52,427 nucleotides of DNA from Sphaerochaetaceae bacterium (GTDB lineage Bacteria > Spirochaetota > Spirochaetia > Sphaerochaetales > Sphaerochaetaceae). A program made the position numbers and the translations under genes. The DNA lies in the NCBI GenBank assembly GCA_028532765.1, contig JAQQAR010000030.1, positions 1 through 52,427 on the forward strand. Reading direction: 5' to 3'. Positions 1 through 30,379 of the stretch are shown in pieces. A model generated the notes under the pieces. The model was not told where the DNA came from and ran no database searches. It worked only from the letters and a program-made list of their open reading frames with translations. The stretch's first letter is position 1. The number at the start of each line of letters is the position of its first letter.

Positions 1-248
1 ACAAGAAGGTTTAGCTGCTCCAGGTCTGAACAGGAATAATTGCGTTTCCCACCTGAGTCTTTTAAACAAACTGTTCCGCTACCGTTCTGATCCATTATGC
101 TTACTTCTAAAACAACCGTACCATCCAGTAAGCAGAAGCGATTTCGATGAGACTGCCCTCCCCCATTCATTTGACAAGCATATTGGTACTCAAGACCGAG
201 ACTGTTCAATATCTCCTGAGTTTTGTCATTTATCCGAAACTTTATCAT
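1..248 (-). CDS. Hypothetical protein, N-terminal part only
   Basis: An open frame starts at ATG 248 behind a good ribosome-binding site (GAGGTGGGG, immediately upstream) and runs off the left edge with no stop, giving about 82 codons. The peptide starts MIKFRINDKTQEIL and is soluble, with no signal peptide or membrane segment; it is mildly polar with several Asn, Gly and Ser residues. I do not recognise the family. It lies to the left of a tRNA-Leu 3' fragment, so it may belong to an integrated element, but nothing in the peptide itself shows that. Confidence 0.6.
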   Translation of the reverse strand, partial: MIKFRINDKTQEILNSLGLEYQYACQMNGGGQSHRNRFCLLDGTVVLEVSIMDQNGSGTVCLKDSGGKRNYSCSDLEQLNLL

Positions 249-478
249 CCCCACCTCGTAAAATAGAATGAATCATATTAGTACCCGATATTCTTCAAGG
301 GAACAAGGATGCACTATTAACTCTTGCTTCAACAATAGTGATGTTGTATATTTTTGGTGTACACAGTTATGGACTCAATAAAACTACATTTAGTGTCATA
401 GCTGTTCATAGGAAAACATAGTAAAGGTTTCCAATATAGGGTTTTATGCAGTATCATACAGTATGCTACATACCCCAT
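249..478. other. Non-coding stretch, nothing recognised
   Basis: This AT-rich stretch lies between the partial left-edge gene and the tRNA fragment. No frame with a start and ribosome-binding site, no strong hairpin and no convincing promoter was seen. If the tRNA fragment is an island junction, this would be the island side. Confidence 0.4.
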
Positions 479-538
479 ATTTGGGTTCAGGTCCTAGCGG
501 TCGTTAAGACTGTGCAAGTTCAAATCTTGTTCTGGGCA
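479..538 (+). pseudogene. 3' fragment of tRNA-Leu(CAG), probable attachment-site remnant
   Basis: The 3' half of a class II tRNA can be folded here. The anticodon stem is 481-485/493-497 around loop TTCAGGT, with anticodon CAG at 488-490. A long variable arm follows at about 498-512. The T arm has stem 514-518/526-530 around TTCAAAT, and the acceptor strand TCTGGGC plus discriminator A is 531-538. The 5' acceptor strand (GCCCAGA expected) and the D arm are absent from the upstream 100 bases, so this is not a working tRNA. A terminator follows directly, as after a real tRNA gene. Such 3' fragments are typical scars of tyrosine-recombinase integration into tRNA genes. No CCA is encoded. Confidence 0.72.
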
Positions 539-539
539 G

Positions 540-580
540 AAAGGCAAATCTTTTAACATAAAGGGTTTGCCTTTTTCTTT
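540..580 (+). terminator. Rho-independent terminator behind the tRNA fragment
   Basis: The arm AAAGGCAAA (540-548) pairs with TTTGCCTTT (566-574), followed by a T-rich tail (TTTTTCTTTT). It begins two bases after the tRNA discriminator base, which suggests it is the original terminator of the tRNA gene. Confidence 0.8.
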
Positions 581-582
581 TG

Positions 583-796
583 TCAAAAACCATCTCCCAT
601 ACCAGTCCTGAACTGAGTACTGTGCACAGTTATTGACACAGTAAGCATTGAAGTTAAGGAATTATCAGAGCGATTGAGGCCACCAAGCACCTACCGTATC
701 ATGAGCATGCAGAAAATTGAATAGCATAAAATCAGGACCAGATGGAACCATATGTGAACACACAGACATTACATGTTCTACGATGTGTCTCTGATC
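583..796. other. Non-coding stretch between tRNA terminator and DUF4256 gene
   Basis: I see no gene here. A plus-strand frame from 773 is only the shadow of the DUF4256 gene. No clear terminator for that gene could be picked out. Confidence 0.4.
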
Positions 797-1363
797 CTAT
801 ACCCTGATCAAACCCCTGAATCCCCTGGAAGCATAGTAGGAGTCTGCTCCGTTGTGATAGATGAATACCCTGTCATAACGACAGTCACCAAAGAGAGCGC
901 CCCCAAGCTTTCTCATAGACTCAGGAGTACGAATCCAACTGGAAGATTTTACATCAAAAACACCCAGCTTCTGGAGATTGCGGTACTGTTCCTCGTCGAG
1001 AAGCTCTATCCCCATTTCTGCTGCAAGAGAACCTGCGCTACCTGTTGGTGGATTCTTTTTCCGGTTCTCAAGGGCTACCTGGTCATAACAGAGACTTCTC
1101 CGGCCAACAGGACTCTCAGCAGAACAATCGACGAATAGGTATACGTCAGAGGTTTCATCGTACCCGATTACATCTGGCTCTCCACCGGTGCGATCCATCT
1201 TAAGGAGCGATGAGAGTTTCTTTGGGTCTTGGGTAAGTCTCTTTTCAATAGCTTTCCAATCAAGATCTTTGTGTCTGGACAAGTTTTCCTCAAATCTTTT
1301 ATGAAGAACAGCAATGAGTGATGTTTTTTGTTCTGAAGTTAACGTAGTCTTAATTATATCCAT
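797..1363 (-). CDS. DUF4256 family protein
   Basis: The 188-residue soluble protein resembles the DUF4256 family over its whole length. Features remembered from that family include a central stretch on a displayed or computed value (DVYLFVDCSAESPVGRRS), a middle segment with GIELLDEEQYRNLQ, and a C-terminal RVFIYHNGADSYYASRGFRG. The biochemical role of the family is not known. The start at 1363 is supported by AGGAG nine bases upstream. It stands alone: the upstream neighbour runs the other way and the downstream side is the tRNA fragment. No signal peptide or membrane segment is present. Confidence 0.8.
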   Translation of the reverse strand: MDIIKTTLTSEQKTSLIAVLHKRFEENLSRHKDLDWKAIEKRLTQDPKKLSSLLKMDRTGGEPDVIGYDETSDVYLFVDCSAESPVGRRSLCYDQVALENRKKNPPTGSAGSLAAEMGIELLDEEQYRNLQKLGVFDVKSSSWIRTPESMRKLGGALFGDCRYDRVFIYHNGADSYYASRGFRGLIRV

Positions 1364-1638
1364 ACAGCATCTCCTATTTCACTTGATCAGCGGTATCAAA
1401 CATAGTGTATCTATATCCTAGCATTTTACTCAAGATACATACCCGTGCCCTGGAATGTAATAAAAACATAGATTGCAAAACAGAATGCAAAACCGGGAAA
1501 GAATAGGCAAACGTCTCTCTCTAGAATTAATCATTCAAAAGAATTGCATCAGAACTGCCCATCAATGTATTGACCGCAATATAATCTAAATGTTAATTTA
1601 GTCTAACAATAGGTGCTATACCTGTACTGGAGGTTCCA

Positions 1639-2280
1639 ATGAAACGAAGCTTATTCCATCTTGGATTTTTCCTCTCCCCTCTCATTCCTGTCATCCTATA
1701 TCTGTACTCTGTAGGTGCGCTTGTCGATTCATATTCAGTGTCAATCATCTTCGGTGTCTACGCTTTCGTCCTCGTCTGTAACCAGTTCTACCTTGCCTCA
1801 CAACCAGCCTGGATGGTCTCCCTGCTGGGAGCAAAGTCGGTTCGCTCATTGCATGGAAGTTCTCCACTGCTCATTATTCTCCTTGCTCTTATCCATGCCT
1901 TGCTCAAGCTCGCCAACGGTTTCACTCTCTCCACTTCACAAGCGCTTATCGGGTTGGTTGCACTTATCCTATTCTTTGTGGGAACGATTGCTGCCTTACT
2001 CTTCTTTGCAAATACCTTGCTTACCAAGCAGAAGAAATTTGCGCAACTGAGAACAAGCACATTTAAAAAAACCGGTCTCACCCATCAGAAAGCCCGTGCA
2101 TTGCACAACCTGATGGTCGTAGCTGGGCTTGTGGTCTTGTTCCATGTCTTACGTGCCTCCACGTCTTCTTTCACCTATAACCCATGGGGGATTGGCATCC
2201 TGGTCGCTTGGATGGCTTTCTCCCTTGTCTCTTATGCGAACTACCGGCTCTCTGGCCGGAAACCAAGGAGAAAATCATGA
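1639..2280 (+). CDS. Ferric-reductase-like b-haem transmembrane protein
   Basis: This 213-residue inner-membrane protein has about six hydrophobic helices. Two of them carry paired histidines: H72 and H86 (14 apart) and H156 and H169 (13 apart). That spacing is the known bis-haem pattern of the ferric reductase/NADPH oxidase transmembrane domain (the family also includes MsrQ). No FAD- or NAD-binding domain follows, so electrons must come from or go to separate partners. The stop overlaps the start of the next gene (ATGA), which encodes an exported DOMON protein, so the two are probably translated together and work as a pair. The start has GGAGG upstream (ACTGGAGGTTCCA). The length is close to the bare domain. 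Direction of electron flow is not shown. Confidence 0.72.
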   Translation: MKRSLFHLGFFLSPLIPVILYLYSVGALVDSYSVSIIFGVYAFVLVCNQFYLASQPAWMVSLLGAKSVRSLHGSSPLLIILLALIHALLKLANGFTLSTSQALIGLVALILFFVGTIAALLFFANTLLTKQKKFAQLRTSTFKKTGLTHQKARALHNLMVVAGLVVLFHVLRASTSSFTYNPWGIGILVAWMAFSLVSYANYRLSGRKPRRKS

Positions 2281-2807
2281 AAAAATTCTCAATAATTCTT
2301 ATCATATCACTGCTCTTCAGCCTGCCACTGGCAGCTCAGATATTCCCAACCTCTCCATCCAATCCAGTGGTTGATGGGTCTTTCGGGACCAATGAATACC
2401 CCGAGATTGTACAACTCAAAGATATGCGCCTCGGGTATGCCCAGAGTCGGGATTCCCGCAATCTGCACTTCATTCTCGAAGCGCCAACCACAGGATGGGT
2501 ATCCGTGGGCCTTGGATCCAATAGGATGCATGGTGCTCATATCATCATAGGCTATGATGCAATTACCAGCCAAGTCATCAGCGAGGAAACTGGCCGTGGA
2601 CACAGCCACAGCCCTTCCTCATCAAAGATGCTTGTACAGAGTAAGATCAAGGAGGCAGGGGGCAAGACTACCCTTGAATTCACTGTACCTACCTCACAGT
2701 TTGATTCAGGAAGAAATCTGCGCCTTATTGTCGCCTATGGTAATCAGGATAATCTCAGGAGCAAGCACGTCACCTATGCAAGCCATACCATCACCTTCCT
2801 GAAATAA
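2277..2807 (+). CDS. Exported DOMON-domain protein, probably haem-binding
   Basis: The 176-residue protein begins with a signal peptide (MKKFSIILIISLLFSLPLAA, likely cut before QIFP). The rest reads as one DOMON beta-sandwich: the core GWVSVGLGSNRMHGAHIIIGY and the closing strand KHVTYASHT are typical. In haem-binding DOMON proteins one Met and one His hold the haem; M84 with H164 or H170 are candidates here. Other family members bind sugars, so the ligand is an inference. The start at 2277 has AAGGAG upstream and overlaps the stop of the b-haem membrane gene, which argues for a periplasmic electron carrier docking on that protein. A strong terminator follows, ending a two-gene operon. Confidence 0.72.
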   Translation: MKKFSIILIISLLFSLPLAAQIFPTSPSNPVVDGSFGTNEYPEIVQLKDMRLGYAQSRDSRNLHFILEAPTTGWVSVGLGSNRMHGAHIIIGYDAITSQVISEETGRGHSHSPSSSKMLVQSKIKEAGGKTTLEFTVPTSQFDSGRNLRLIVAYGNQDNLRSKHVTYASHTITFLK

Positions 2808-2831
2808 CTGTTTTTTATAGACTGACTAGTG

Positions 2832-2871
2832 TATGGGTATGTTTGGAGCAACCAACATACCCATATTTTTT
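2832..2871 (+). terminator. Rho-independent terminator of the DOMON operon
   Basis: A perfect 12-bp stem, TATGGGTATGTT (2832-2843) with AACATACCCATA (2854-2865), is followed by six T residues. Confidence 0.9.
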
Positions 2872-2967
2872 GCTATGTCCTTAGTGGTCCATCCTAGTAT
2901 GTTGTGAACAGGAAGAATGGTACTACATCAAACCCAGACCAACCCTAAGTAGTAAAAATCCAATTCC

Positions 2968-3393
2968 CTAAGATCTCTTGCCTTTGATCAAGTTCCAAGG
3001 AAACAATCCCTCTTTGTACAGCAAGGCAAGAGCTATCAAGCCCTGGACTGCTCCGATGATGAAGAAGAGTACATGAAGAAATACCACTGTCTTAATAATA
3101 AGTACCTGTACCACAATCCACACAATCATGGATCCTCCAAGCAGGCCAGCAACATACCCAAGATACTTGTTCTGCTTTAACAAGAGTATGATACTGAACA
3201 GATTGCCGACTCCAAACAGTCCAAATAGAACAATCCAAGGAATCAGAAACGTAGAGAGCGGGGATCCCTGCAGCATCTCGATTGTGGCACCAAGAGGGGT
3301 TACAGGATCAACCAAGCAAGCATACCCACCAGCAAGCGCACCCAGTCCAACGATCAAATTTATGAGTAACAAAATGATACGAAGTAGTTTCAT
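2968..3393 (-). CDS. Small four-helix membrane protein, unknown
   Basis: This 141-residue protein has about four hydrophobic helices: residues 3-25, 48-72, 78-100 and 105-128, roughly. It lacks a recognisable motif beyond helix-breaking Gly/Pro turns (CLVDPVTPLG). The start at 3393 has GGGAGG upstream. It stands alone between convergent and divergent neighbours. It looks like the generic small integral membrane proteins common in firmicutes and spirochaetes; I cannot name a family or function. Confidence 0.65.
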   Translation of the reverse strand: MKLLRIILLLINLIVGLGALAGGYACLVDPVTPLGATIEMLQGSPLSTFLIPWIVLFGLFGVGNLFSIILLLKQNKYLGYVAGLLGGSMIVWIVVQVLIIKTVVFLHVLFFIIGAVQGLIALALLYKEGLFPWNLIKGKRS

Positions 3394-3632
3394 GATTCAG
3401 GCCTCCCAGACCTGCCAAGGAAAAATACTATCAGTAGAAATTGGTACAAGCTAGAGAATGAACTAGCCAATTATCGAAAAATGTACAAAATCATTCAAGA
3501 AGAATATACTCTTGGAATTATACGCGTGTAATATATTCACCATTTTTAAACAATATTTTTTTAATTTTCCGTAATTTTTGTATCCAAAAGTACCAATATT
3601 TCGCTATTCATACTTTTTTCATAAAAACTGTT

Positions 3633-3661
3633 TTGACATTTGGAAATTCGTCCCGTATGCT
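3633..3661 (+). promoter_or_regulatory. Sigma-70-type promoter of the TRAP operon
   Basis: TTGACA (3633-3638) and TATGCT (3656-3661) are separated by exactly 17 bases, about 75 bases before the dctP start. The rest of the 3394-3735 gap is very AT-rich and holds nothing else I can support. Confidence 0.75.
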
Positions 3662-3735
3662 AAAGAAAAAAGAGTTGTAGAAATTAAGCTTAATTCTGCT
3701 TAATCTTTAACTCAAAATACATTCAGGAGGAAAGA

Positions 3736-4749
3736 ATGAAAAAAGTTCTATTTACCCTATTGGTTCTGGCTCTGGTAGTCATGCCGGTCATGGCCCAAGG
3801 AAGCAAGGAAGCAGCAAGTGGGGACGATTATAAGCTCGTATTGAAAATGAGCCATGTATTCGCACCCAATGAACAGCTGACAAAATCCCTCGACATGGTT
3901 GTCAAGAATATCAGCGATCGCACTAATGGTGCAATTGAGATACAACACTACCCACAGAGCCAGCTGGCTGTCTACAAAGACGGCGTTGAGCAGGTTGCCC
4001 GTGGTGCGGACTTCATCAGTGTTGAAGACCCATCTTACCTTGGTGACTATGTTCCCGATTTCAACGCTTTGGTTGGACCAATGCTCTACAAGAGTTTTGA
4101 CGAGTATGAGTACATGATCCAGACCGATTTGGTGAAAGGCATGCTGAAAGAACTGGAAGAAGAGCACAGAATCAAGGTTCTCGCTCTGGATTACATCTTT
4201 GGTTTCAGGAATATGAAGACCAACAAGGTCATCACCACCCCTGCTGATCTCCAGGGAATGAAAATCAGGACTCCTGGAAGCCAGTTGTTCATCGATACCA
4301 TCAATGCAATGGGTGCAACCGCTACCCCCCTCGGGTTCAGCGAAACCCTGAGCGCAGTACAGCAGGGTGTTGTTGACGGCCTGGAAGGCACCATGGATGC
4401 GTATGGGTCCAATGGTAGTGCTGAAGTTGCCAAGAACATGGCTCTTACCCAGCATTTCCTCGGAACTTGTGGTGTATACATCAATGTTGATGTCTTCAAC
4501 GCAATTCCTGAAGAGTATCAGACCATTATCGAGGAAGAGTTCACCGCTGGTGCAAAGCACATGATCGGTGAGATTTCCAACAATTATGAGGCCACAAAAG
4601 CAAAACTCGAGGCTCAAGGCAACAAGTTCAACGAAGTTGACTCTGCTGCATTTGCTGCCACTGTTACCAGCGTCTACGAGAACATGAAGGGTGTCACTCC
4701 TGGCATCTATCAGATTCTGCAGGACGAATTGGCCAAGATGCCCAAGTAA
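3736..4749 (+). CDS. dctP: TRAP transporter solute-binding protein (DctP family)
   Basis: The 337-residue protein begins with a signal peptide ending near VMAQ and is released to the periplasm. The rest matches the DctP/SiaP solute-receptor family: an N-terminal strand KLVLKMSHVFAPNEQ, a central LQGMKIRTPGS with the conserved substrate-carboxylate arginine (R178), and GVVDGLEGTMD. It would hand an organic acid to the DctQM membrane complex. It is the first gene of an operon with dctQ, dctM and a glycerophosphodiester phosphodiesterase gene, behind a good promoter and the site AGGAGG. The family tells the mechanism but not the substrate; the operon partner hints at a phosphodiester or a product of it, which is only inference. 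Confidence 0.92.
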   Translation: MKKVLFTLLVLALVVMPVMAQGSKEAASGDDYKLVLKMSHVFAPNEQLTKSLDMVVKNISDRTNGAIEIQHYPQSQLAVYKDGVEQVARGADFISVEDPSYLGDYVPDFNALVGPMLYKSFDEYEYMIQTDLVKGMLKELEEEHRIKVLALDYIFGFRNMKTNKVITTPADLQGMKIRTPGSQLFIDTINAMGATATPLGFSETLSAVQQGVVDGLEGTMDAYGSNGSAEVAKNMALTQHFLGTCGVYINVDVFNAIPEEYQTIIEEEFTAGAKHMIGEISNNYEATKAKLEAQGNKFNEVDSAAFAATVTSVYENMKGVTPGIYQILQDELAKMPK

Positions 4750-4845
4750 GTGTATCTGTCCTATACAGGTCGAGGATTGTCGGTGTATGCTACAAAACAC
4801 TGGTCGTCTTCGACCTGTACTTTATCTTCAAGGAGAACGTGATCA

Positions 4846-5331
4846 ATGCACCAAGCCGTAAAGAAAGTGCTATCCAACCTTGAGCTCGTCATCGCCAGTG
4901 CTGCCATTATTGTCACCACTGTCTTGGTCATGCTCAATGTCTTCACGCGCTACTTCCTGAAAACCGGCATTTACTGGTCAGAGGAAGTTGCAACCGCCTG
5001 CTTTGTCTGGTCGGTCTTCATAGGCGCTGCCGCAGGATACAAGCATCGAGCCCATGTAGGTGTCGATATGCTGGTCAATCTCTGCCCCCCTAAAACAAAG
5101 AAAACAATCACCATCATCGTTGATCTTGTCCTACTGTTGATCAATGGATATATAACCTATATTGCAGTCATTTATCTCTCGCTCTCCTATAAGAAACCCA
5201 CACCGGTACTGGGAATTTCGACTGCATACATCAGTTCATCGATTCTCGTCAGCTTTGCACTGACAACCATCTATTCAATCTATTTCCTGGTCAAGGATAT
5301 TAAACAGCCTGCACAAGGAGGTACCACATGA
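4846..5331 (+). CDS. dctQ: TRAP transporter small membrane subunit (DctQ family)
   Basis: This 161-residue protein has four membrane helices (about 13-35, 48-66, 86-108 and 125-150) and the family hallmark FTRYFLKTGIYWSEEVATACFVWSVFIGAA split around residues 29-58, followed by YKHRAHVGVDML. DctQ forms the small subunit that joins DctM in the inner membrane. The start at 4846 has AAGGAGAACGTGATCA upstream. It lies 96 bases after dctP and overlaps dctM by four bases (ATGA). Confidence 0.9.
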   Translation: MHQAVKKVLSNLELVIASAAIIVTTVLVMLNVFTRYFLKTGIYWSEEVATACFVWSVFIGAAAGYKHRAHVGVDMLVNLCPPKTKKTITIIVDLVLLLINGYITYIAVIYLSLSYKKPTPVLGISTAYISSSILVSFALTTIYSIYFLVKDIKQPAQGGTT

Positions 5332-6623
5332 TTGCCTACCTCCCCATCATCCTGGTATTCATCCTGTACTTCTCAAGCATTCCCATCGCCTATGCACTGT
5401 TTGGGTCCTCACTCTTCTACTTTGCGGTAATCGATACCAGCAGTCCGGTTGACTTGATCCTCCAGAAGTTTGTCACCAGCACCCAATCCTTCCCGCTTCT
5501 AGCCATCCCCTTCTTTGTAATGGCAGGATCGATCATGAACTATGCTGGCATCAGCAAGAAATTGATGCAGTTCGCTGATGTCCTTACCGGCCATATGGCA
5601 GGAGGCATGGCGCAGGTCAATGTACTGTTGAGCCTGCTTATGGGAGGGGTTTCCGGTTCAGCAAATGCTGACGCGGCAATGCAGAGCAAGATGCTGGTTC
5701 CCGAGATGGAAAAAAGAGGGTACGACAGGGCATTCTCTACAGCGATTACCGCTGCATCCTCTGCTGTCACTCCGGTCATTCCACCTGGGATCAACCTGAT
5801 CATCTATGCCTTGATCGCCAATGCATCGGTTGGACGGATGTTTGCTGCAGGATATGTCCCTGGCCTGATTATGACCATCAGCTTGATGGTGACTGTCTCC
5901 ATCATCTCAAAGCGTCGTGGCTACCAGCCTGTACGAGAGAAGAAAGCTGGGACAAAGGAAGTTGTTCATCAGCTTCGCGATTCCATATGGGCCCTGCTAT
6001 TCCCCTTTGGTATCATTGCAGGACTTCGAATCGGCATGTTTACTCCTTCCGAGGCTGGAGCAGTAGCAGTGCTGTACTGCATCATCGTAGGAAAGTTTAT
6101 CTACAAGGAACTGAGAAAGGAACACATCATCCCTGTATTAAGAGAAACCATCTTTGGAACCAGCGGTGTAGTTCTGATCATCGTCTCTGCCTCTGTCTTT
6201 GGATACTACCTGAACTGGGAACGCATCCCTCAGGCAATGGCAAGTGGACTGCTTACCATCACCCAGAATAAGTACCTGATGCTGATGATCATCAACGTCC
6301 TCTTCCTTGTAATGGGAATGTTCCTTGAGGGAGGAGCTGCAATGATCATTCTCGCTCCCTTGCTCGTGCCGGTGGTGACCCAGCTCGGTATTGATGTTAT
6401 CCATTTTGGTTTGATCTGCATTGTGAATATCATGATCGGAGGACTTACACCCCCATTCGGTTCAATGATGTTTACCTGCTGCAGCATCACCCGATGCAGT
6501 TTGCAGGATTTCGTGAAGGAGGTCATTCCTTTCATTGTTGCCCTGCTGATCTCACTGATTCTTGTAACGTATATTCCCATTATCACCCTCATCGTGCCTA
6601 ACTTGCTCTATGGGGTTGCCTGA
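5328..6623 (+). CDS. dctM: TRAP transporter large permease (DctM family)
   Basis: The 431-residue protein is the ion-coupled translocation subunit, with about 12 helices. Family signs include PFFVMAGSIMNYAGIS, the Gly/Ser-rich MGGVSGSANADAA and the VIPPGINLIIYA loop, plus FTPSEAGAVAVLY and GGLTPPFG in the second half. Together with DctQ it imports the ligand delivered by DctP using the sodium gradient (family knowledge). It overlaps dctQ by ATGA and is followed 21 bases later by the phosphodiesterase gene, so all four genes appear to be one transcript ending at the terminator near 7403. Confidence 0.93.
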   Translation: MIAYLPIILVFILYFSSIPIAYALFGSSLFYFAVIDTSSPVDLILQKFVTSTQSFPLLAIPFFVMAGSIMNYAGISKKLMQFADVLTGHMAGGMAQVNVLLSLLMGGVSGSANADAAMQSKMLVPEMEKRGYDRAFSTAITAASSAVTPVIPPGINLIIYALIANASVGRMFAAGYVPGLIMTISLMVTVSIISKRRGYQPVREKKAGTKEVVHQLRDSIWALLFPFGIIAGLRIGMFTPSEAGAVAVLYCIIVGKFIYKELRKEHIIPVLRETIFGTSGVVLIIVSASVFGYYLNWERIPQAMASGLLTITQNKYLMLMIINVLFLVMGMFLEGGAAMIILAPLLVPVVTQLGIDVIHFGLICIVNIMIGGLTPPFGSMMFTCCSITRCSLQDFVKEVIPFIVALLISLILVTYIPIITLIVPNLLYGVA

Positions 6624-6644
6624 TTACTATTGGAGGTACCTATT

Positions 6645-7379
6645 GTGAAGATTTTCGCCCACCGAGGGTATAGTGGGTTTTACCCAGAGAACACCATGCT
6701 TGCTTTCCAGAAGGCCTGGGAAGCAGGCAGTGATGGCATTGAACTCGATGTCCAACTGACCAAGGACGGTGAGTTGGTGGTAATCCATGATGAAACCCTT
6801 GATAGAACCACAGACCACACAGGACGCGTTTGTGACTATACACTGGAAGAACTGAAAACGTGTAATGCAGCTGCAAAGAGCCAACTAGCAAATACATTCA
6901 TGACCATCCCCACCTTTGAGGAGTACTGCACATGGGTGGCAACCACAAATCTGGTTACCAACATCGAAATCAAGAGCAGTGTCATTTATTACCCTGAGAT
7001 TGAGGAGAAGACCCTGGAGATGGTAAGCCGTTACCAGCTGGAAGAGAGAACCCTGATCTCCTCTTTCAACCATCTCAGTTTATGTGCCGTGAAGGCTATT
7101 GCCCCTTCCATCCTGTGTGGAGCTCTTGTTCCTGAGACCGGGTTGGTCAATGCAGGTCATGCTGCCCAGAAGTTTGGGTTTGAGTGTTTCCACCCACCTT
7201 ACTGCACCATGAGCAAGGAGGCAGTACAGGAGTGTCACGATCACCAGATTCAGGTTAATGTCTGGACGGTAAACACCATGCATGAACTTATAGACTGCTA
7301 CAATTGGGGATGTGATGGCGTTTTCACCAACTACCCTGATGTGTGCAGGGCGTTTGTGGATGCGCAGGAAAACAGCTGA
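6645..7379 (+). CDS. Glycerophosphodiester phosphodiesterase (GDPD)
   Basis: A cytoplasmic enzyme of 244 residues that would hydrolyse glycerophosphodiesters to glycerol 3-phosphate and an alcohol. The catalytic set of the family is complete: HRG (H6, R7), PENT (E15), the metal pair in IELDV (E33, D35) and HDETLDRTT (H48). It has no signal peptide. I chose the GTG at 6645 because GGAGGT sits seven bases before it; a TTG at 6630 would overlap that site. Being last in a TRAP operon is unusual for this enzyme and suggests that the TRAP system feeds it, or that it acts on lipid breakdown products. It ends just before a strong terminator. Confidence 0.9.
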   Translation: MKIFAHRGYSGFYPENTMLAFQKAWEAGSDGIELDVQLTKDGELVVIHDETLDRTTDHTGRVCDYTLEELKTCNAAAKSQLANTFMTIPTFEEYCTWVATTNLVTNIEIKSSVIYYPEIEEKTLEMVSRYQLEERTLISSFNHLSLCAVKAIAPSILCGALVPETGLVNAGHAAQKFGFECFHPPYCTMSKEAVQECHDHQIQVNVWTVNTMHELIDCYNWGCDGVFTNYPDVCRAFVDAQENS

Positions 7380-7402
7380 ATCTACAATATGTCTAGGATT
7401 GT

Positions 7403-7428
7403 GGGCACATCCAAATGTGCCCCTTTTT
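7403..7428 (+). terminator. Rho-independent terminator of the TRAP-GDPD operon
   Basis: GGGCACAT (7403-7410), loop CCAA, and ATGTGCCC (7415-7422) form a perfect 8-bp stem followed by CTTTTTG. Confidence 0.9.
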
Positions 7429-7518
7429 GTTGAATAGACCTATACCTGATTATATCGTTTCAACACCCGTAGAGCACGGAGGGTTACTTAGGCTGTTCCA
7501 TGTAAACTATGCTGTGCA

Positions 7519-7845
7519 TTAGCAGGAGGGACCATCTTCATTGAGCACTTTGCATAGACATGCATCACCTGGCAAGAATACCGTATCCAAGAACCCTGTG
7601 AGAAGCTTCACCTTCTCCCTGTTGATCCCATAATACATCCATTTGCCCTTTCTCGATGCGGTGATGATTCCTACATTTTTGAGTATGGTTAAATGATGGG
7701 AGAGGGTCGGTTGGCTTATATTGAAATACTTCTGTATCTCACAAACACACAACTCTCCACAACTGAGAATATGGACAATACATATCCTCGTTGGGTCTGC
7801 GATGGCCTTCAATAAATGGGAACCGTTTTCAAAATCGATGTTCAT
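7519..7845 (-). CDS. arsR: ArsR-family metalloregulator
   Basis: A 108-residue winged-helix repressor. The recognition region ISQPTLSHHLTILKNVGI (43-60) is typical, and ELCVCE at residues 31-36 holds the Cys pair (C33, C35) that binds arsenite or antimonite in classical ArsR. A second CxC (C97, C99) and a final Cys (C108) lie at the C-terminus and could add metal ligands. I chose ATG 7845 because AGAGG precedes it; the open frame reaches back to 7914 without a better site. It is divergent from the arsenite efflux gene and very likely represses it until the metalloid binds. Confidence 0.88.
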   Translation of the reverse strand: MNIDFENGSHLLKAIADPTRICIVHILSCGELCVCEIQKYFNISQPTLSHHLTILKNVGIITASRKGKWMYYGINREKVKLLTGFLDTVFLPGDACLCKVLNEDGPSC

Positions 7846-7861
7846 TGCAACCTCTATAAAA

Positions 7862-7890
7862 ATCATGAAATATAAATAGATAGATGTCAA
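7862..7890 (-). promoter_or_regulatory. Candidate arsR promoter
   Basis: On the minus strand TTGACA (7890-7885) and CATGAT (7867-7862) are 17 bases apart, just before the arsR start. The -10 match is only moderate. Confidence 0.4.
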
Positions 7891-8006
7891 TATATATAGC
7901 ATATCACATGTCATGAAGTAACACTTAAAAATTTTTTATTATATTTTAATGTATATATTTGTTTGTAGTATAAATTGATCTACATACTATCTTATTCAGA
8001 GTTATA

Positions 8007-8036
8007 TTGACAAACTTCTATATATAATCCTATAGT
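8007..8036 (+). promoter_or_regulatory. Candidate acr3 promoter
   Basis: TTGACA (8007-8012) and TATAGT (8031-8036) are 18 bases apart, about 35 bases before the acr3 start. A perfect TATAAT at 8023 is too close to that -35 box to be used with it. Confidence 0.5.
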
Positions 8037-8069
8037 TTTGCTAGACATTATTGCGGAGGGGGGTGTTTT

Positions 8070-9128
8070 GTGAGCAACAAGAACAATATAACAGGGATCA
8101 GCTTCTTTGAACGATACCTGACTCTATGGGTGCTTCTTTGCATGGCCACAGGTGTATTGATCGGTGTATATCTTCCCCAGATTCCTCATTTTCTCTCCCG
8201 GTTTGAATATGCAAATGTATCAATTCCTGTAGCTATCCTGATCTGGCTCATGATCTACCCCATGATGCTCAAGGTCGATTTTCATAGCATCAAGCAAGTT
8301 GGGCAAAATCCAAAAGGCCTTATGATTACCTGGATAACCAACTGGCTTATCAAGCCTTTCAGCATGTATGCCATCGCTTTCTTCTTTTTCTTTATCGTGT
8401 ACAAGGCCATCATTCCCGAAAGCCTTGCCAGGGAGTACCTGGCAGGGGCTGTTCTCCTGGGGGCTGCGCCCTGTACTGCAATGGTATTTGTATGGAGCCA
8501 TCTCACCAGAGGTAATCCAGCGTATACCTTAGTTCAGGTTGCAACCAACGATCTCATCATTCTTGCAGCATTCGTACCCATCGTGGGACTGCTACTCGGA
8601 ATAAGTGGCATAAGCATCCCCTGGATGACCCTCTTCCTCTCGGTGGTGCTCTTTGTGGTCATTCCCCTTGGGGCTGGATGGTTCAGTCGTGTGCTGATCA
8701 CACGCAGTCATGGCCTCGAATACTTTGAGAATACCTTCATTCCCAAATTCAGCAATGTGACCATTACCGGCTTGCTTCTTACCCTGATTATCATTTTCTC
8801 ATTCCAAGGTCAGACAATCATAGACAACCCGCTTAATATCGTGTTGATAGCCATACCACTCATCATCCAGACATTCCTCATCTTCTTCATAGCCTATCTT
8901 TGGGCCAAAGCATGGAAATTGCCCCATGATGTGGCAGCACCAGCTGGAATGATTGGGGCCTCGAACTTCTTTGAATTAGCTGTAGCAGTCGCTATCTCAG
9001 TCTTTGGACTACAATCAGGAGCTACCATAGCGACCGTAGTTGGGGTTTTGGTGGAGGTTCCCGTAATGTTGACCTTGGTGGGTATAGCAAACCGAACCAA
9101 GCGCTGGTTTCCTACACCTCAATCCTGA
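8070..9128 (+). CDS. acr3: Arsenite efflux permease, ACR3 family
   Basis: A 352-residue inner-membrane protein with about ten helices. It carries the ACR3 signs YPMMLKVDF in the second helix region, the essential cysteine in GAAPCTAMVFVWS (C135) and the charged VGVLVEVPVML near the C-terminus. It would export arsenite using the proton gradient. The start is GTG 8070 behind GGAGGGGGG; no better ATG exists before the first helix. It is divergent from arsR, giving a minimal arsenic resistance unit without an arsenate reductase in view. Its last ten bases overlap the end of the convergent alkyltransferase-like gene. Confidence 0.93.
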   Translation: MSNKNNITGISFFERYLTLWVLLCMATGVLIGVYLPQIPHFLSRFEYANVSIPVAILIWLMIYPMMLKVDFHSIKQVGQNPKGLMITWITNWLIKPFSMYAIAFFFFFIVYKAIIPESLAREYLAGAVLLGAAPCTAMVFVWSHLTRGNPAYTLVQVATNDLIILAAFVPIVGLLLGISGISIPWMTLFLSVVLFVVIPLGAGWFSRVLITRSHGLEYFENTFIPKFSNVTITGLLLTLIIIFSFQGQTIIDNPLNIVLIAIPLIIQTFLIFFIAYLWAKAWKLPHDVAAPAGMIGASNFFELAVAVAISVFGLQSGATIATVVGVLVEVPVMLTLVGIANRTKRWFPTPQS

Positions 9129-9427
9129 AAACCAGGATTCCACTGATACATTTCCATGGCAATCGTTCCATCAGAGAGAAAGGATATTCCCTCTGACTCA
9201 AGCATTACTCGTTGGAGCTCATAGAAGTCTTTGTTTGCGAGGCTTCCATCTGATCGGATTACCCGATGCCATGGGAGCGCAGAGGAGCACTTTCGCATGG
9301 CCCACCCCACAATTCGGGCATTACTTGGACTACCAAGCATGCAGGCGATCTGCCCATAGGAGGCTACCTTCCCCTCTGGAATTCGGCCTACGATTTCATA
9401 GACTTGGGCAAAGAAGGAGTGGTTCAC
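9119..9427 (-). CDS. Alkyltransferase-like protein (MGMT fold, no catalytic Cys)
   Basis: The 102-residue protein is a bare MGMT DNA-binding domain: FFAQVYEIVGRIPEGKVASYGQIA, the arginine finger region NARIVGWAM, and PWHRVI. In true O6-methylguanine methyltransferases the last motif is PCHRV; here the cysteine is tryptophan (W53), as in ATL proteins that flag alkylated guanine for nucleotide excision repair rather than repairing it themselves. The start is GTG 9427 with GGAGAAGG upstream, overlapping the stop of the upstream lipoprotein gene (GTGA), so the two are translationally coupled. Confidence 0.9.
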   Translation of the reverse strand: MNHSFFAQVYEIVGRIPEGKVASYGQIACMLGSPSNARIVGWAMRKCSSALPWHRVIRSDGSLANKDFYELQRVMLESEGISFLSDGTIAMEMYQWNPGFQD

Positions 9428-9975
9428 GTTGCCTTCTCCCAGAGAGCAACAAGTGTGGAAAGCGTAAGAGAATTCACCTGCCCCTTCACATAGCCTGTAA
9501 TCGTACCATCGGTACTGACTACCACCAGTGTTGGCTCCCCATCGATGGGGATCTCTGCCTGCTCGGCAAATTTCTCTGCTTTGGAGAGAAACAACACACC
9601 ACCTCGCTCTGGGTCAATCAATCCTTCAAAACTTTCAGCAAGCCCCCTGCGGATAGCCCCACGGACAAAGAAGGGAGCTCCTTCTATGACGGAGATGTGG
9701 TAGAACGGGGCATAGCGTAGTGAAGCATCACTCCCTTCAACCGCATCTTGCCAAGCGATTAGCGCTTCTTGCTGTACCTCCCCATTTTCCCTGGAGGTAC
9801 CAATATTCAAGGCAATCAGGACAGGGGAATCTTTGATGAGATCTGCAGGGAATGTAAAATCAACATCAGCAAAACTCTTCACTTTTTCCTCGGGGAAGGT
9901 TCCAGAGAATAGGAACTGGTTGCAACCCAGTAGAAGAAAGAGCACAATAGTGGAAAATATCATCGTTCTTTTCAT
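9424..9975 (-). CDS. Predicted lipoprotein, possibly thioredoxin-like
   Basis: The 183-residue protein has a lipoprotein signal, MKRTMIFSTIVLFLLLGC, so it should be anchored to a membrane through Cys18. The rest looks like an alpha/beta fold: a strand PVLIALNIGTS, a segment IDPERGGVLFLSK, and a late GEPTLVVVSTDGTI that resembles the cis-proline part of thioredoxin-like folds. No CxxC is present, so redox chemistry is unlikely. The ATG at 9975 sets the signal peptide correctly; the frame extends to 10035 but without a signal. Its stop overlaps the next gene. Family and role unknown. Confidence 0.65.
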   Translation of the reverse strand: MKRTMIFSTIVLFLLLGCNQFLFSGTFPEEKVKSFADVDFTFPADLIKDSPVLIALNIGTSRENGEVQQEALIAWQDAVEGSDASLRYAPFYHISVIEGAPFFVRGAIRRGLAESFEGLIDPERGGVLFLSKAEKFAEQAEIPIDGEPTLVVVSTDGTITGYVKGQVNSLTLSTLVALWEKAT

Positions 9976-10071
9976 GGTAGTTCCAAGTATAGTACCAATT
10001 TGCTCATTCCTATAGAGCAAATTTCCGGTAATCACATGGAATGAAAGATTGATGATACTACGGAGGACAGC

Positions 10072-10425
10072 ATGTGGTACTACATCATCAAAATTGGGAT
10101 TTCAGCTCTTACAATCACCCTAGTCAGCGAAATAGCCAAACGCAGTTCCCTATTCGGTGCCTTGATTGCATCTCTCCCATTGACCTCACTCTTGGCAATC
10201 CTCTGGATGCATTTTGAGAAAACCGAGGACACCGCCATAGCGCAGCTTTCCCAGTCAATCTTCTTTCTGGTGCTTCCTTCTCTGGCATTCTTTGCCCTTT
10301 TCCCCTTCTTGCTTCATCGCGGAATGGCTTTCTGGGGAAGTTTCATGCTTGCAAGTGGAGCAACGATTGTGCTCTACTTCCTTCTCATCGCCATTCTCAA
10401 GCACTACAACATTACAGCGCTCTGA
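10072..10425 (+). CDS. DUF3147 family membrane protein
   Basis: The 117-residue protein has four hydrophobic helices and the DUF3147 pattern: SEIAKRSSLFGALIASLPLTSLLAILWM near residues 18-47 and a late hydrophobic pair. The family has no known function. The start at 10072 has GGAGG eight bases before it. It is divergent from the lipoprotein gene and is followed 57 bases later by an acetyltransferase gene on the same strand, so the two may share a transcript. Confidence 0.8.
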   Translation: MWYYIIKIGISALTITLVSEIAKRSSLFGALIASLPLTSLLAILWMHFEKTEDTAIAQLSQSIFFLVLPSLAFFALFPFLLHRGMAFWGSFMLASGATIVLYFLLIAILKHYNITAL

Positions 10426-10482
10426 ATTTCATCTTTTCTCTTGTGTTCCTCATAAAGCTGCTCGATACTACAAAGGGGCTTT

Positions 10483-11250
10483 ATGATGCAGAGACTTGTC
10501 GAAATGAAAAAGGCAGTTCCTCTCTTTCAAGGATGGCATGACACCCTTTTACGTTCATGTATGCAAGGTATCATGGGAGAAATCTATGTAGATGACCAAA
10601 ACGAGCCTCGCTCTGCTTTTGCTCTGCTCGGAGACTTCTGTCTACTCGCTGGCGAGCCGTCAAGAGAACTCTTACTTTTCCAGTATGATCTTGGTCGATG
10701 GCAGACCCGTCTCCTTGTCCCCAAGGGCGAATTGTGGGAACGGGCTATCAGGGAGACCTTTGGACCCAAGGCTAGGGAATTCACCCGCTATGCTCTTAAG
10801 AAGGAGGCTTCGTTTGATAAAGCCCATCTGAGCAGCCTTGTCGATTCTCTCCCCCCGGCATTCCGAATCGTTGAGATAGATGAAATCCTGTACCACTTTC
10901 TCCTTTCAGAGTCTTGGTGCCGTGATCTGGTTGGACAGTTCCCCACGTATGAGCGATTTCGCGACCTGGGACTGGGCTTTGTCATACTCAAGGGCACTGA
11001 GGTTGTAGCAGGAGCCTCTTCGTACTGCAGGTATCACAACGGAATAGAAGTTGAAGTGGATACAAAAACTCCTTATCGAAGAAAAGGTCTTGCATTGGCT
11101 TGCAGTGCAAAGCTCATCCTTGCCTGTATGGAACGTGATCTTTTTCCCTCTTGGGATGCCCACACAGAACTATCACTTCACTTGGCTGAAAAGCTTGGGT
11201 ATACGTTGGACTATCCCTATCAGACATTCGAACTTACGAAGACCAAATAG
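10483..11250 (+). CDS. GNAT-family N-acetyltransferase
   Basis: This 255-residue cytoplasmic protein matches the two-part GNAT acetyltransferase family (PF12746 type). The acetyl-CoA site appears as GIEVEVDTKTPYRRKGLALACSAKLI (about 186-211), with YRRKGLA as the pyrophosphate-binding loop, followed by PSWDAH and LAEKLGYTLDYPYQTFEL. The substrate cannot be told. AAGGGG lies before two possible starts, ATG 10483 and ATG 10486; the choice changes one residue. It follows the DUF3147 gene on the same strand. Confidence 0.82.
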   Translation: MMQRLVEMKKAVPLFQGWHDTLLRSCMQGIMGEIYVDDQNEPRSAFALLGDFCLLAGEPSRELLLFQYDLGRWQTRLLVPKGELWERAIRETFGPKAREFTRYALKKEASFDKAHLSSLVDSLPPAFRIVEIDEILYHFLLSESWCRDLVGQFPTYERFRDLGLGFVILKGTEVVAGASSYCRYHNGIEVEVDTKTPYRRKGLALACSAKLILACMERDLFPSWDAHTELSLHLAEKLGYTLDYPYQTFELTKTK

Positions 11251-11329
11251 ATGCCCAGCAAACCTATTTCCATCTGCCATGTATAATTGTCTTTGTTTAC
11301 TCTTGTAAGCCTCTCCAACAAACCTACAG

Positions 11330-11341
11330 TACGTTAACGCA
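11330..11341. promoter_or_regulatory. Upstream operator-like site of the chvE operon
   Basis: TACGTTAACGCA is the exact reverse complement of the left 12 bases of the stronger operator at 11498. The two sites are about 170 bases apart, a spacing that would allow a tetrameric LacI-type repressor to loop the DNA. Confidence 0.5.
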
Positions 11342-11457
11342 CTCAGATGAAAATCCTTTCATCCTTAAGCTAGGAAAATCATCATCTGTAAGCATGCTTT
11401 ATTTATAGTTATTATTAGTATTTAGTATTGATAATTAAAGATTACCCAATAATTTTC

Positions 11458-11486
11458 TTGACTTCTATACGAAATGATTTAACAAT
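11458..11486 (+). promoter_or_regulatory. Candidate promoter of the chvE operon
   Basis: TTGACT (11458-11463) and AACAAT (11481-11486) are 17 bases apart. The operator-like palindrome begins 12 bases downstream. Confidence 0.5.
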
Positions 11487-11497
11487 AAAGAGTGTGA

Positions 11498-11515
11498 TGC
11501 GTTAACGTAAACGCA
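11498..11515. promoter_or_regulatory. LacI-type operator of the chvE operon
   Basis: TGCGTTAACGTAAACGCA is an 18-bp palindrome with a central CG and a single mismatched pair. It lies just behind the candidate -10 box, where a bound LacI-family protein would block transcription. Confidence 0.68.
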
Positions 11516-11537
11516 GAAAACCTTAAGGAGGCTACAT

Positions 11538-12632
11538 ATGAAAAAGATGCTCGTAGCGGCAATGGTTCTACTCATTGCCATGAACATGGTTTTTGCAGGG
11601 GGGGCTGCTGAAACTTCGTCAAAAGGAATGGTCGGAGTAGTCATGCCTACCAGATCAGAGGAACGTTGGAATAAGGATGGAGCAGCGGTCAAATCTGGTT
11701 TGGAAGAACTCGGTTATGAGGTCGACCTGCAATTCTCAGACGACGACATTCCTACCCAGGTTCGTCAAATTGAAGACCTGATCACCAAGAGAGCAAAAGT
11801 ACTCGTCATTGCTTCCATCGATGGATCGGCCTTGACTGATGTACTGGCAAAAGCTGCGGACGAAGGAATTCCCGTAATTGCTTATGACCGCTTGATCATG
11901 AAATCACCACACGTAGACTACTACCTGTCATTTGACAACTATGCAGTCGGCCAGCAGATGGGTGATATCCTCATCCAGGGAATGAACTTGGACAATCCTG
12001 CTAAGAAGCCCTTGCTCATTGAGTTGTTTGGTGGATCACCTGACGACAACAATGCATATTTCTTCTACAACGGCGCCATGGACAAGCTTAAGCCCTATTT
12101 TGACAATGGCACCCTCAAGATTGGTTCAGGCCAGCAGGGCATGGACACAGTAGGAACACTCCGCTGGAGTAATGAGTTGGCAATGTCCAGAATGGAAAAC
12201 CTCCTCTCTGCCCATTATACAAACCAGACGCTCGACGGAATTCTGTCTCCTTATGATCCAATCAGTCTCTCCACGCTTGAAGCATGCAAGGCTGTCGGTT
12301 ATGGAACACCTGGAAAACCACTGCCGGTCGTCGGTGGACAGGATTGTATTGTAGCTTCCTGTAAGTCAATCCTCGCTGGTGAACAGTATGCAACCGTTCT
12401 CAAGGATACCCGTGTACTCGGTATGGCTACTGTAGAACTCGTTGACACCATCATGCGCGGTGAAGTACCCCAGGGACTGAATACCACCACGTACGATAAT
12501 GACTCCATCAAGAACGGCAAACCCTATATCGTTCCTTCCGTTTTGTTGGAATCAGTCATCGTCACCAAGGACAATCTCGTAGCTGAAGTAGTCGATACCG
12601 GTTACCACTCAGCCGAAGATCTTGGACTGTAA
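11538..12632 (+). CDS. chvE: Monosaccharide-binding protein of ABC importer (ChvE type)
   Basis: The 364-residue protein has a signal peptide ending at VFA and then GGAAETS. The mature part is a periplasmic-binding protein of the ribose/xylose class and is most like ChvE: VGVVMPTRSEERWNKDG, the hinge VIASIDGSAL, IPVIAYDRLI, GQDCIVASCKSI and TVLKDTRVLG. ChvE relatives bind glucose, galactose, arabinose and similar sugars. AAGGAGG precedes the ATG. It heads an operon with the ATPase and permease genes and lies behind LacI-type operators. An intergenic hairpin follows, which may keep this gene's message more abundant than the rest. Confidence 0.9.
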   Translation: MKKMLVAAMVLLIAMNMVFAGGAAETSSKGMVGVVMPTRSEERWNKDGAAVKSGLEELGYEVDLQFSDDDIPTQVRQIEDLITKRAKVLVIASIDGSALTDVLAKAADEGIPVIAYDRLIMKSPHVDYYLSFDNYAVGQQMGDILIQGMNLDNPAKKPLLIELFGGSPDDNNAYFFYNGAMDKLKPYFDNGTLKIGSGQQGMDTVGTLRWSNELAMSRMENLLSAHYTNQTLDGILSPYDPISLSTLEACKAVGYGTPGKPLPVVGGQDCIVASCKSILAGEQYATVLKDTRVLGMATVELVDTIMRGEVPQGLNTTTYDNDSIKNGKPYIVPSVLLESVIVTKDNLVAEVVDTGYHSAEDLGL

Positions 12633-14378: not shown

Positions 14379-15566
14379 ATGAGTGGCTTGATTGAAATTT
14401 TGAAAAAGAATGTGAGGCAGTATATGATGGTCATCGCCTTGGCTGTGGCGATGATTGCGTTTGGTCTCTTGACGGACGGTATCTTTTTCAGACCAGTGAA
14501 TCTGACGAATCTGGTACTTCAGAACAGCTATGTTTTGATTCTTGCCGTTGGTATGTTGCTGTGTACATTGACCGGTAACATCGACCTTTCTGTTGGATCC
14601 ATGGTCGCTTTCATTGGTGCCCTTTGCGGAGTCATGATGGTAGACCTCCAATGGAATCCGTATCTTGCCATGATTATTGCATTGGCATGTGGCGCTTTAA
14701 TTGGAATGTGGCAAGGGTTCTGGATAGCATTCGTGAATGTCCCACCATTCATTGCCACCCTGGCAGGCATGTTGGTCTTTAGAGGTTTGGGACAGGTCAT
14801 CATGAAAGGCCAGACCAAGGCACCTTTCCCAGAGGCGTTCCAAAAGATTTCAAGCGGCTATATCCCTGATCCATTTGGAGGGGCCACTGTAGGAAATGTG
14901 ACGTTTCACATTTTCACACTCCTTATTGGGTTTGTGATTGTAGGGCTGATTATCTTCGGAGAAATTCAGAAACGAAAAAAACAGAAGAAATATGCCTTTG
15001 ACCTACTCCCTCCTGGAATCTGGCTTGCGAAGGTAATCTTTATTGCTTCTGTCTTGATAGCTTTTACCGTTGTGTTCGCAATCTACAAAGGGTTTCCCAA
15101 TGTCTTGATCCTGCTGGGAGTACTCGTTGTAGGATATCAGTTCGTTGCATCCAAGACAGTCCAAGGTCGTCATATCTACGCCCTTGGGGGAAACAGGAAA
15201 GCCGCTGAGCTGTCCGGTGTAAAAGTAAAATGGGTAATGTTCTGGATTTATACGAATATGGCTATCCTGGCTACGGTTGCTGCAATGGTATTTACCGCAC
15301 GCCTCAACTCAGCCACGCCAAAAGCTGGACAGAACTTTGAAATGGATGCCATCGCAGCTTGTTACGTCGGTGGATCGGCTGTCTCAGGTGGAGTGGGTAC
15401 GGTGATTGGTGCAGTCGTCGGAGGGCTCTTCATTGGAGTCCTGAACAACGGAATGTCAATCATTGGTGTCAGTACGGACTGGCAGCAAGCTATCAAGGGG
15501 TTTGTATTGCTTGCAGCCGTTGCATTCGACCTCTATTCGAAATCAAGGTCATCCAAGGTGGCATGA
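14379..15566 (+). CDS. gguB: Sugar ABC transporter permease (GguB/XylH type)
   Basis: The 395-residue inner-membrane protein has about ten helices. It matches the BPD_transp_2 permeases of ribose/xylose/multiple-sugar importers: GNIDLSVGSMVAFIGALCG, FIATLAGMLVFRGLG, YALGGNRKAAELSGV and AIAACYVGGSAVSGGVGTV. A hydrophilic insert with KRKKQKK (about residue 195) is usual in the longer XylH-like members. ATG 14379 has AAGGAG six bases upstream; an in-frame extension to 14220 overlaps gguA and lacks a signal. A hairpin terminator follows. Confidence 0.92.
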   Translation: MSGLIEILKKNVRQYMMVIALAVAMIAFGLLTDGIFFRPVNLTNLVLQNSYVLILAVGMLLCTLTGNIDLSVGSMVAFIGALCGVMMVDLQWNPYLAMIIALACGALIGMWQGFWIAFVNVPPFIATLAGMLVFRGLGQVIMKGQTKAPFPEAFQKISSGYIPDPFGGATVGNVTFHIFTLLIGFVIVGLIIFGEIQKRKKQKKYAFDLLPPGIWLAKVIFIASVLIAFTVVFAIYKGFPNVLILLGVLVVGYQFVASKTVQGRHIYALGGNRKAAELSGVKVKWVMFWIYTNMAILATVAAMVFTARLNSATPKAGQNFEMDAIAACYVGGSAVSGGVGTVIGAVVGGLFIGVLNNGMSIIGVSTDWQQAIKGFVLLAAVAFDLYSKSRSSKVA

Positions 15567-29328: not shown

Positions 29329-30266
29329 CTAGTCCGAGCTTTCGTATAAGGTTGCTATACGATGAATCCGACGCTTCATCTCCAATCGGATATGCATGGG
29401 TTCCAAACACTCGCAGGCATCTCCAAAACTGAGTAGGATATTGTAATAGTAATCATTCTCTATGAAGGGGAAATCAACAAGGTAATGCTCTGCCCCATCT
29501 GGTGAAATCTGTTCAGACGTACAAAAATCAAGCACTCGTTCCTTAGCTGATGCATGAATACGTATCTTGATTGGGTTATGCATCATTTCCAAGGTATTTG
29601 AAACATCCAACTGTGGTTCATGATACGCTCGTGGAATAAAGCGCTTTTCAGATATCTGCAAACCAGAAATACGTGATACCCTGAACAGCCGATAGTCATT
29701 TCTTCTATAGCAGTACCCATGGACATACCACCTACTACCCTTCAATACCAATTGGTATGGCTCAGCTGTGCGTGTGGTTGTATTACCATAGCGGTCTGCA
29801 TAGACAAAGGAAAGCAATTTGGTTTCGTGTAAGGCTGTTTTGCTATTTCCAGATATGCTTGTATATTCCTGTTGCCCATCCACGGACTCAAGTCGATGTG
29901 TATCTGATTTGCTTTCAGTGTAATCTCTTTAGCCCTATCGGGAGGTATGAAACTCTTCACCTTCGCAAGGGCACCAACCAGCTCATCACCTCGGATCATG
30001 CCAGAAAGGCTGGATAGCCCCATCAAGATAGAGGAAAGGTCGGTAGTCGAGAAAACCTTCCGATCGACCTTGTATCCCGGCATGATTTCAAAGCCACCAC
30101 CCACTCCCGAAGTTGAACGTACAGGAATACCAGCCATTCCGATTGCCTCAATGTCACGGTAGAATGTTCTAAGCGAAACTTCAAACATATCGGCCAACTC
30201 CTGTGCCCCGATACGATTTTTATCAAGGAGTATCATTATTATGCTTACAAGCCTATCTACTTTCAT
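29329..30266 (-). pseudogene. YafY/WYL-family regulator, frameshifted
   Basis: Two overlapping frames together give one complete protein. The first (from ATG 30266) has the DeoR-like helix-turn-helix RIGAQELADMFEVSLRTFYRDI and runs to HIDLSPWMGNRNIQAYLEIAKQ. The second carries on with ALHETKLLSFVYADRYGN and the WYL ligand-sensing domain to DVPF-like WYL end at 29329. Joining needs one extra A in the run AAAA (plus-strand TTTT at 29838-29841), so a one-base deletion in a homopolymer, or a sequencing error, explains it. If real, the regulator is lost. It is divergent from the isochorismatase-type gene, its likely target. Confidence 0.8.
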
Positions 30267-30379
30267 CTGATTACAATCTTCCTGTAGTTTGTATAGGTAT
30301 TGTGGATTGTCGCCACAGTGTTGTCAACAATTGCATTCTATAGTGATACCAACAAAGCAACCTAACAGGGAGATCCACT

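Follow-up and report, generated by a model that had tools for sequence, protein, structure and literature searches.

The window, which is the whole of contig C30 (52,427 bases) of a spirochaete assembly of 93 contigs and 3.16 Mb (G000), carries a displaced 3′ fragment of a tRNA-Leu(CAG) gene. This fragment is almost certainly the attR that a tyrosine-integrase element left behind when it inserted at that gene. The attR core is placed at 484..538 (+) by its identity to a gene on a second contig, C55, and by alignment with the empty sites of related genomes. Its 55 nt are 100% identical to positions 31-85 of the intact tRNA-Leu(CAG) at G000:C55:734-818(-), i.e., to the 3′-terminal 55 nt of the gene, and the match of the window to this tRNA region has an E of about 1e-30, far outside chance. 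The anticodon CAG is at window 488-490, and of the 5′ strand of this stem no more than GG (484-485) is left, the stem being that of the anticodon. The first-pass annotation had described a 3′ part of tRNA-Leu(CAG) with the 5′ half absent and had called for an intact gene with an identical 3′ end in the same genome, and both are borne out by C55. The start that it gave, 479, has to be moved by five bases: 479-483 are non-tRNA bases and the first tRNA base is 484. ARAGORN called no tRNA over the window, and the C55 gene is the sole intact copy found in genome searches.

The fragment is followed by the rho-independent terminator native to the tRNA-Leu gene (539..583, +), recognized by its hairpin and by a short-loop form common to the empty sites. 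The hairpin spans about 538-577, and the sequence from 479 to 585 folds at -34.8 kcal/mol (z = -5.4, with 0 of 200 shuffles as good), in keeping with the strong terminator originally noted 3′ of the fragment. A search of window 1-3000 against Rfam gave sub-threshold matches only, which come from the terminator hairpin or from chance.

On C55 a tyrosine integrase adjoins the intact tRNA-Leu on the island side, where one had been expected. It starts about 130 bp past the tRNA; its frame, at 1-603, comprises 201 codons up to the contig edge, where it is truncated, and displays phage-integrase SAM-like domains (Pfam). The order on C55 is malQ, CarD, ispD, ispF, intact tRNA-Leu, terminator, integrase, the first four being names that we presume from reading the sequences. 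In the site alignment the C55 terminator is 11 bp longer than the chromosomal type, and the longer form also adjoins homologous integrases in the related genomes G141, G017 and G016. The terminator and right flank of the window are of the chromosomal type, with the short-loop form found in G018, G012, G014 and G001. Thus element-borne and native DNA can be told apart by the two terminator types. The two island ends are on separate contigs, C55 and C30, which are unjoined in the assembly. The remaining integrase sequence and the island interior were sought in G000 with the C-terminal half of the G016 integrase, the first bases of both contigs and the G141 island; nothing was found past C55. The assembly therefore breaks off within the island at either end, at C55:1 and at window position 1. 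The catalytic half, where a lambda-type tyrosine recombinase has R...HxxR...H...Y, is unassembled in G000 and is present in the G141 protein.

The uninterrupted site is found in five related genomes, G018, G012, G014, G001 and G141, of which G141 is from the same species. The first four show the order malQ, CarD, ispD, ispF, tRNA-Leu, terminator, DUF4256, membrane protein, and in G018, G012 and G001 the fetched sequence continues with DOMON, TRAP transporter, GDPD, ArsR, ACR3 and further genes in the order of the window. G141, a one-contig genome, has an uninterrupted tRNA-Leu and then DUF4256. In the window, the first native gene to the right of the island encodes the DUF4256 protein (797..1363, -; Pfam PF14066, E = 6e-83), and in all five genomes this gene is directly downstream of the intact tRNA-Leu. 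By colinearity, native chromosome also occupies 1639..12632, with genes for a membrane protein, a DOMON protein, a TRAP transporter, GDPD, ArsR/ACR3, a methyltransferase-like protein, GNAT and a periplasmic sugar-binding protein, most of these being names that we take from reading the sequence. The same region is colinear downstream of tRNA-Leu in G018, G012 and G001, with 81-100% protein identity.

The comparison with related strains, proposed at the outset as a check, thus shows an empty site that joins exactly both flanks, including in the same species. The proposed orientation, with the island on the left and the native chromosome on the right, also holds, as the terminator of the fragment matches the empty-site type and is unlike that of the island. 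The configuration is the correct one, with the 3′ fragment downstream and on the same strand, as judged from the order and strand of the flanks where the site is empty. From the identity to the C55 tRNA, the adjoining integrase and the empty sites it follows that the far island end (attR) is at window 1-483, that the terminator is chromosomal and that the DNA to the right is native. That a second tRNA-Leu gene was partly duplicated or decayed, with no mobile element involved, is hardly credible in view of these data. tRNA gene fragments can arise through decay, and G005 has two full tRNA-Leu copies, but the fragment here shows full identity over 55 nt, has an abrupt start within the anticodon stem and has kept the native terminator, there is an integrase beside the intact copy, and the empty-site genomes, by joining exactly both flanks, speak decisively against it.

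The integrase-distal (left) end of the integrated island, 1..483, begins at the contig edge. The empty sites of G018, G012, G014, G001 and G141 have nothing that corresponds to it, and the genome has no second copy of it. Its GC content is 0.38, versus 0.43-0.50 over most of the flank. It holds an 84-aa open frame (3..254, -; from the ORF listing), an island gene that runs off the contig edge; this frame belongs to no Pfam or PHROG family and has only one weak 40-aa hit among family genomes. No relative of the integrase or of this frame was found in viral contigs, and a phage collection gave one match only, 28% identical. Further to the right on the same arm, a putative integrase arm-type site, TGTACACAGTTATGGACTCAATAA, is at 358..381 (+). 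It is identical in 21 of 24 bases to a motif between the C55 terminator and the integrase start (a local score of 33, reached by none of 1000 shuffles), so that a 24-bp candidate arm-type site is present on both island arms. This motif bears on a possible assembly artefact, in which the first 483 bases would be misjoined to the rest of the window. The junction is indeed close to a contig end, and the left part is without a match elsewhere in the genome; however, the left part shares the arm-type motif with the integrase-proximal arm and the junction is exactly at the expected core, and we consider a misjoin very improbable.

Insertion of an integrase element at tRNA-Leu(CAG) very probably proceeded as follows. 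The attP of the element, with its copy of the tRNA-Leu(CAG) 3′ half and a terminator, recombined with the anticodon arm of the chromosomal gene. The element-borne 3′ half and terminator complete the intact tRNA beside the integrase on C55 (attL), and the chromosome's own 3′ half and terminator have been moved to the far end of the island, window 484-583 (attR), which is the half-site exchange to be expected. The strands would be exchanged in the 7-bp anticodon loop TTCAGGT, which is flanked by the 5-bp stem repeats CTAGG and CCTAG, and the crossover was probably within the GGTTCAGGT segment of window 484-538. The integrase would also bind the arm-type sites on both island arms. For tRNA-targeting tyrosine recombinases, a core site made up of the 7-bp anticodon loop and its palindromic stem has been described (PMC8371274), and the CTAGG-TTCAGGT-CCTAG core shows the same arrangement of inverted repeats around a 7-bp overlap. 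The fragment itself is a recombination scar without a function of its own, and is likely the partner site for excision.

An intact tRNA gene together with a displaced fragment is the known signature of tDNA islands (Islander, PMC4383910). The plan of class A islands, which are anticodon-centred, is the one seen here, i.e., an intact tDNA by the integrase, a displaced 3′ fragment, and flanks that are joined in island-free relatives (PMC4383910); the basic plan is without difference, and the interior is unassembled in G000. As Islander looks for them, an intact tRNA and its cognate end fragment occur in one genome, a tyrosine integrase lies between the two, represented by the partial C55 frame on the island side, and the site is empty in G018, G012, G014, G001 and G141. 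Islander sets the spacing of fragment and tRNA at 2-200 kb; here the two are on separate contigs.

Homologous integrases are found at the same tRNA-Leu(CAG) in G017 and G016. The elements of these two congeners have a 68-71% identical integrase, the longer terminator type and a related arm motif, but differ in cargo. That of G016 consists of restriction-modification and prophage-like genes; that of G017 includes a DNA methyltransferase and an ATPase, the latter with weak matches to defence families. An internal stop interrupts the integrase of G017. The attR of the G016 and G017 islands was sought, and none was found in the about 32 and 76 kb fetched downstream, respectively. To the right of the window fragment, at about 613..655 (+), is a degenerate second arm-type motif, with a local score of 30 when compared with the C55 arm and of 39 with the G016 arm, neither being reached by any of 1000 shuffles. 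It is on the chromosomal side, and is present in G000, G018 and G001 and absent in G012, G014 and G141. The motif suggests a scar of an earlier related element at the tRNA-Leu site. This motif, and a hot spot with other insertions in G016, G017, G019 and G005, would fit a tandem array in which the window fragment and the C55 integrase come from different elements. Nevertheless searches of the assembly gave only a single fragment and a single intact copy of tRNA-Leu(CAG), and native genes come directly after the fragment, so a tandem array is unlikely.

Two other arrangements were seen at this tRNA. G019 has a 36-bp tRNA-Leu 3′ fragment (L045:13449-13540) 2.3 kb downstream of the intact tRNA, with a PDC-S01-like ATPase gene in between; no integrase was seen there. 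The two full-length tRNA-Leu(CAG) genes of G005 (L046:3949-4033 and 14747-14831) are identical and separated by 10.8 kb that hold transport and signalling genes, as if an element had brought a whole tRNA copy.

The integrase of G141 is 93% identical to that of C55 over the shared 201 residues. At 388 aa this protein is complete; it has a Phage_integrase domain, and matches lambda integrase in the core-binding and catalytic domains (E about 4e-10), with low overall identity. The lambda system has both arm-type and core-type sites; the arm sites here are putative. The attB of lambda itself is not a tRNA gene.

In G141 the tRNA-Leu site is empty, and the integrase is beside a tRNA chimera at L075:4175-4284 (G141:C1, about 30174-30283), which is directly upstream of it. 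In the chimera the upstream region and the initial 50-odd nt of an elongator-type tRNA-Met are followed by the tRNA-Leu 3′ half, and the joint lies in the shared sequence TAGGTTCARGTCCTA. The tRNA-Met T arm, GTAGG-TTCAAGT-CCTAC, and the tRNA-Leu anticodon arm, CTAGG-TTCAGGT-CCTAG, are both dyads with a 5-bp stem and a 7-nt loop, and differ at three positions. An intact tRNA-Met is 1.7 kb upstream of the chimera. The simplest reading is an integrase-mediated entry into a second tRNA-Met copy, but the chimera may be a misassembly in G141; a matching tRNA-Met 3′ fragment, the attR of the G141 element, is absent from about 96 kb fetched downstream. It is somewhat more likely than not that one integrase family targets both genes, entering tRNA-Leu(CAG) at its anticodon arm and the elongator-type tRNA-Met at its T arm. 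Elsewhere, L119 (G001) has a degenerate tRNA-Met 3′ fragment and terminator about 2.9 kb downstream of tRNA-Met, which suggests a second hot spot of integration for the genus at tRNA-Met. A roughly 336-bp repeat at L075:3745-4080, also present at several other places in related genomes, may be a small mobile repeat. Next to the integrase in G141 and G017, the cargo resembles anti-phage defence genes.

A tRNA-split integrase island is a common and well-understood kind of event, and the tRNA-Met/tRNA-Leu chimera is the sole part that a specialist might find new. In the part of the literature covered, no title on a tRNA-Leu/tRNA-Met or anticodon/T-loop switch and no paper on islands in Sphaerochaeta were found. 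For a spirochaete integrase, the sites described here define attL, attR and attB exactly, and tRNA-Leu(CAG) is an integration hot spot in the genus, where relatives carry defence or prophage-like cargo. If confirmed, the chimera would tie two known tRNA sub-sites, the anticodon loop and the T loop, together in one integrase lineage by way of a shared stem-loop sequence.
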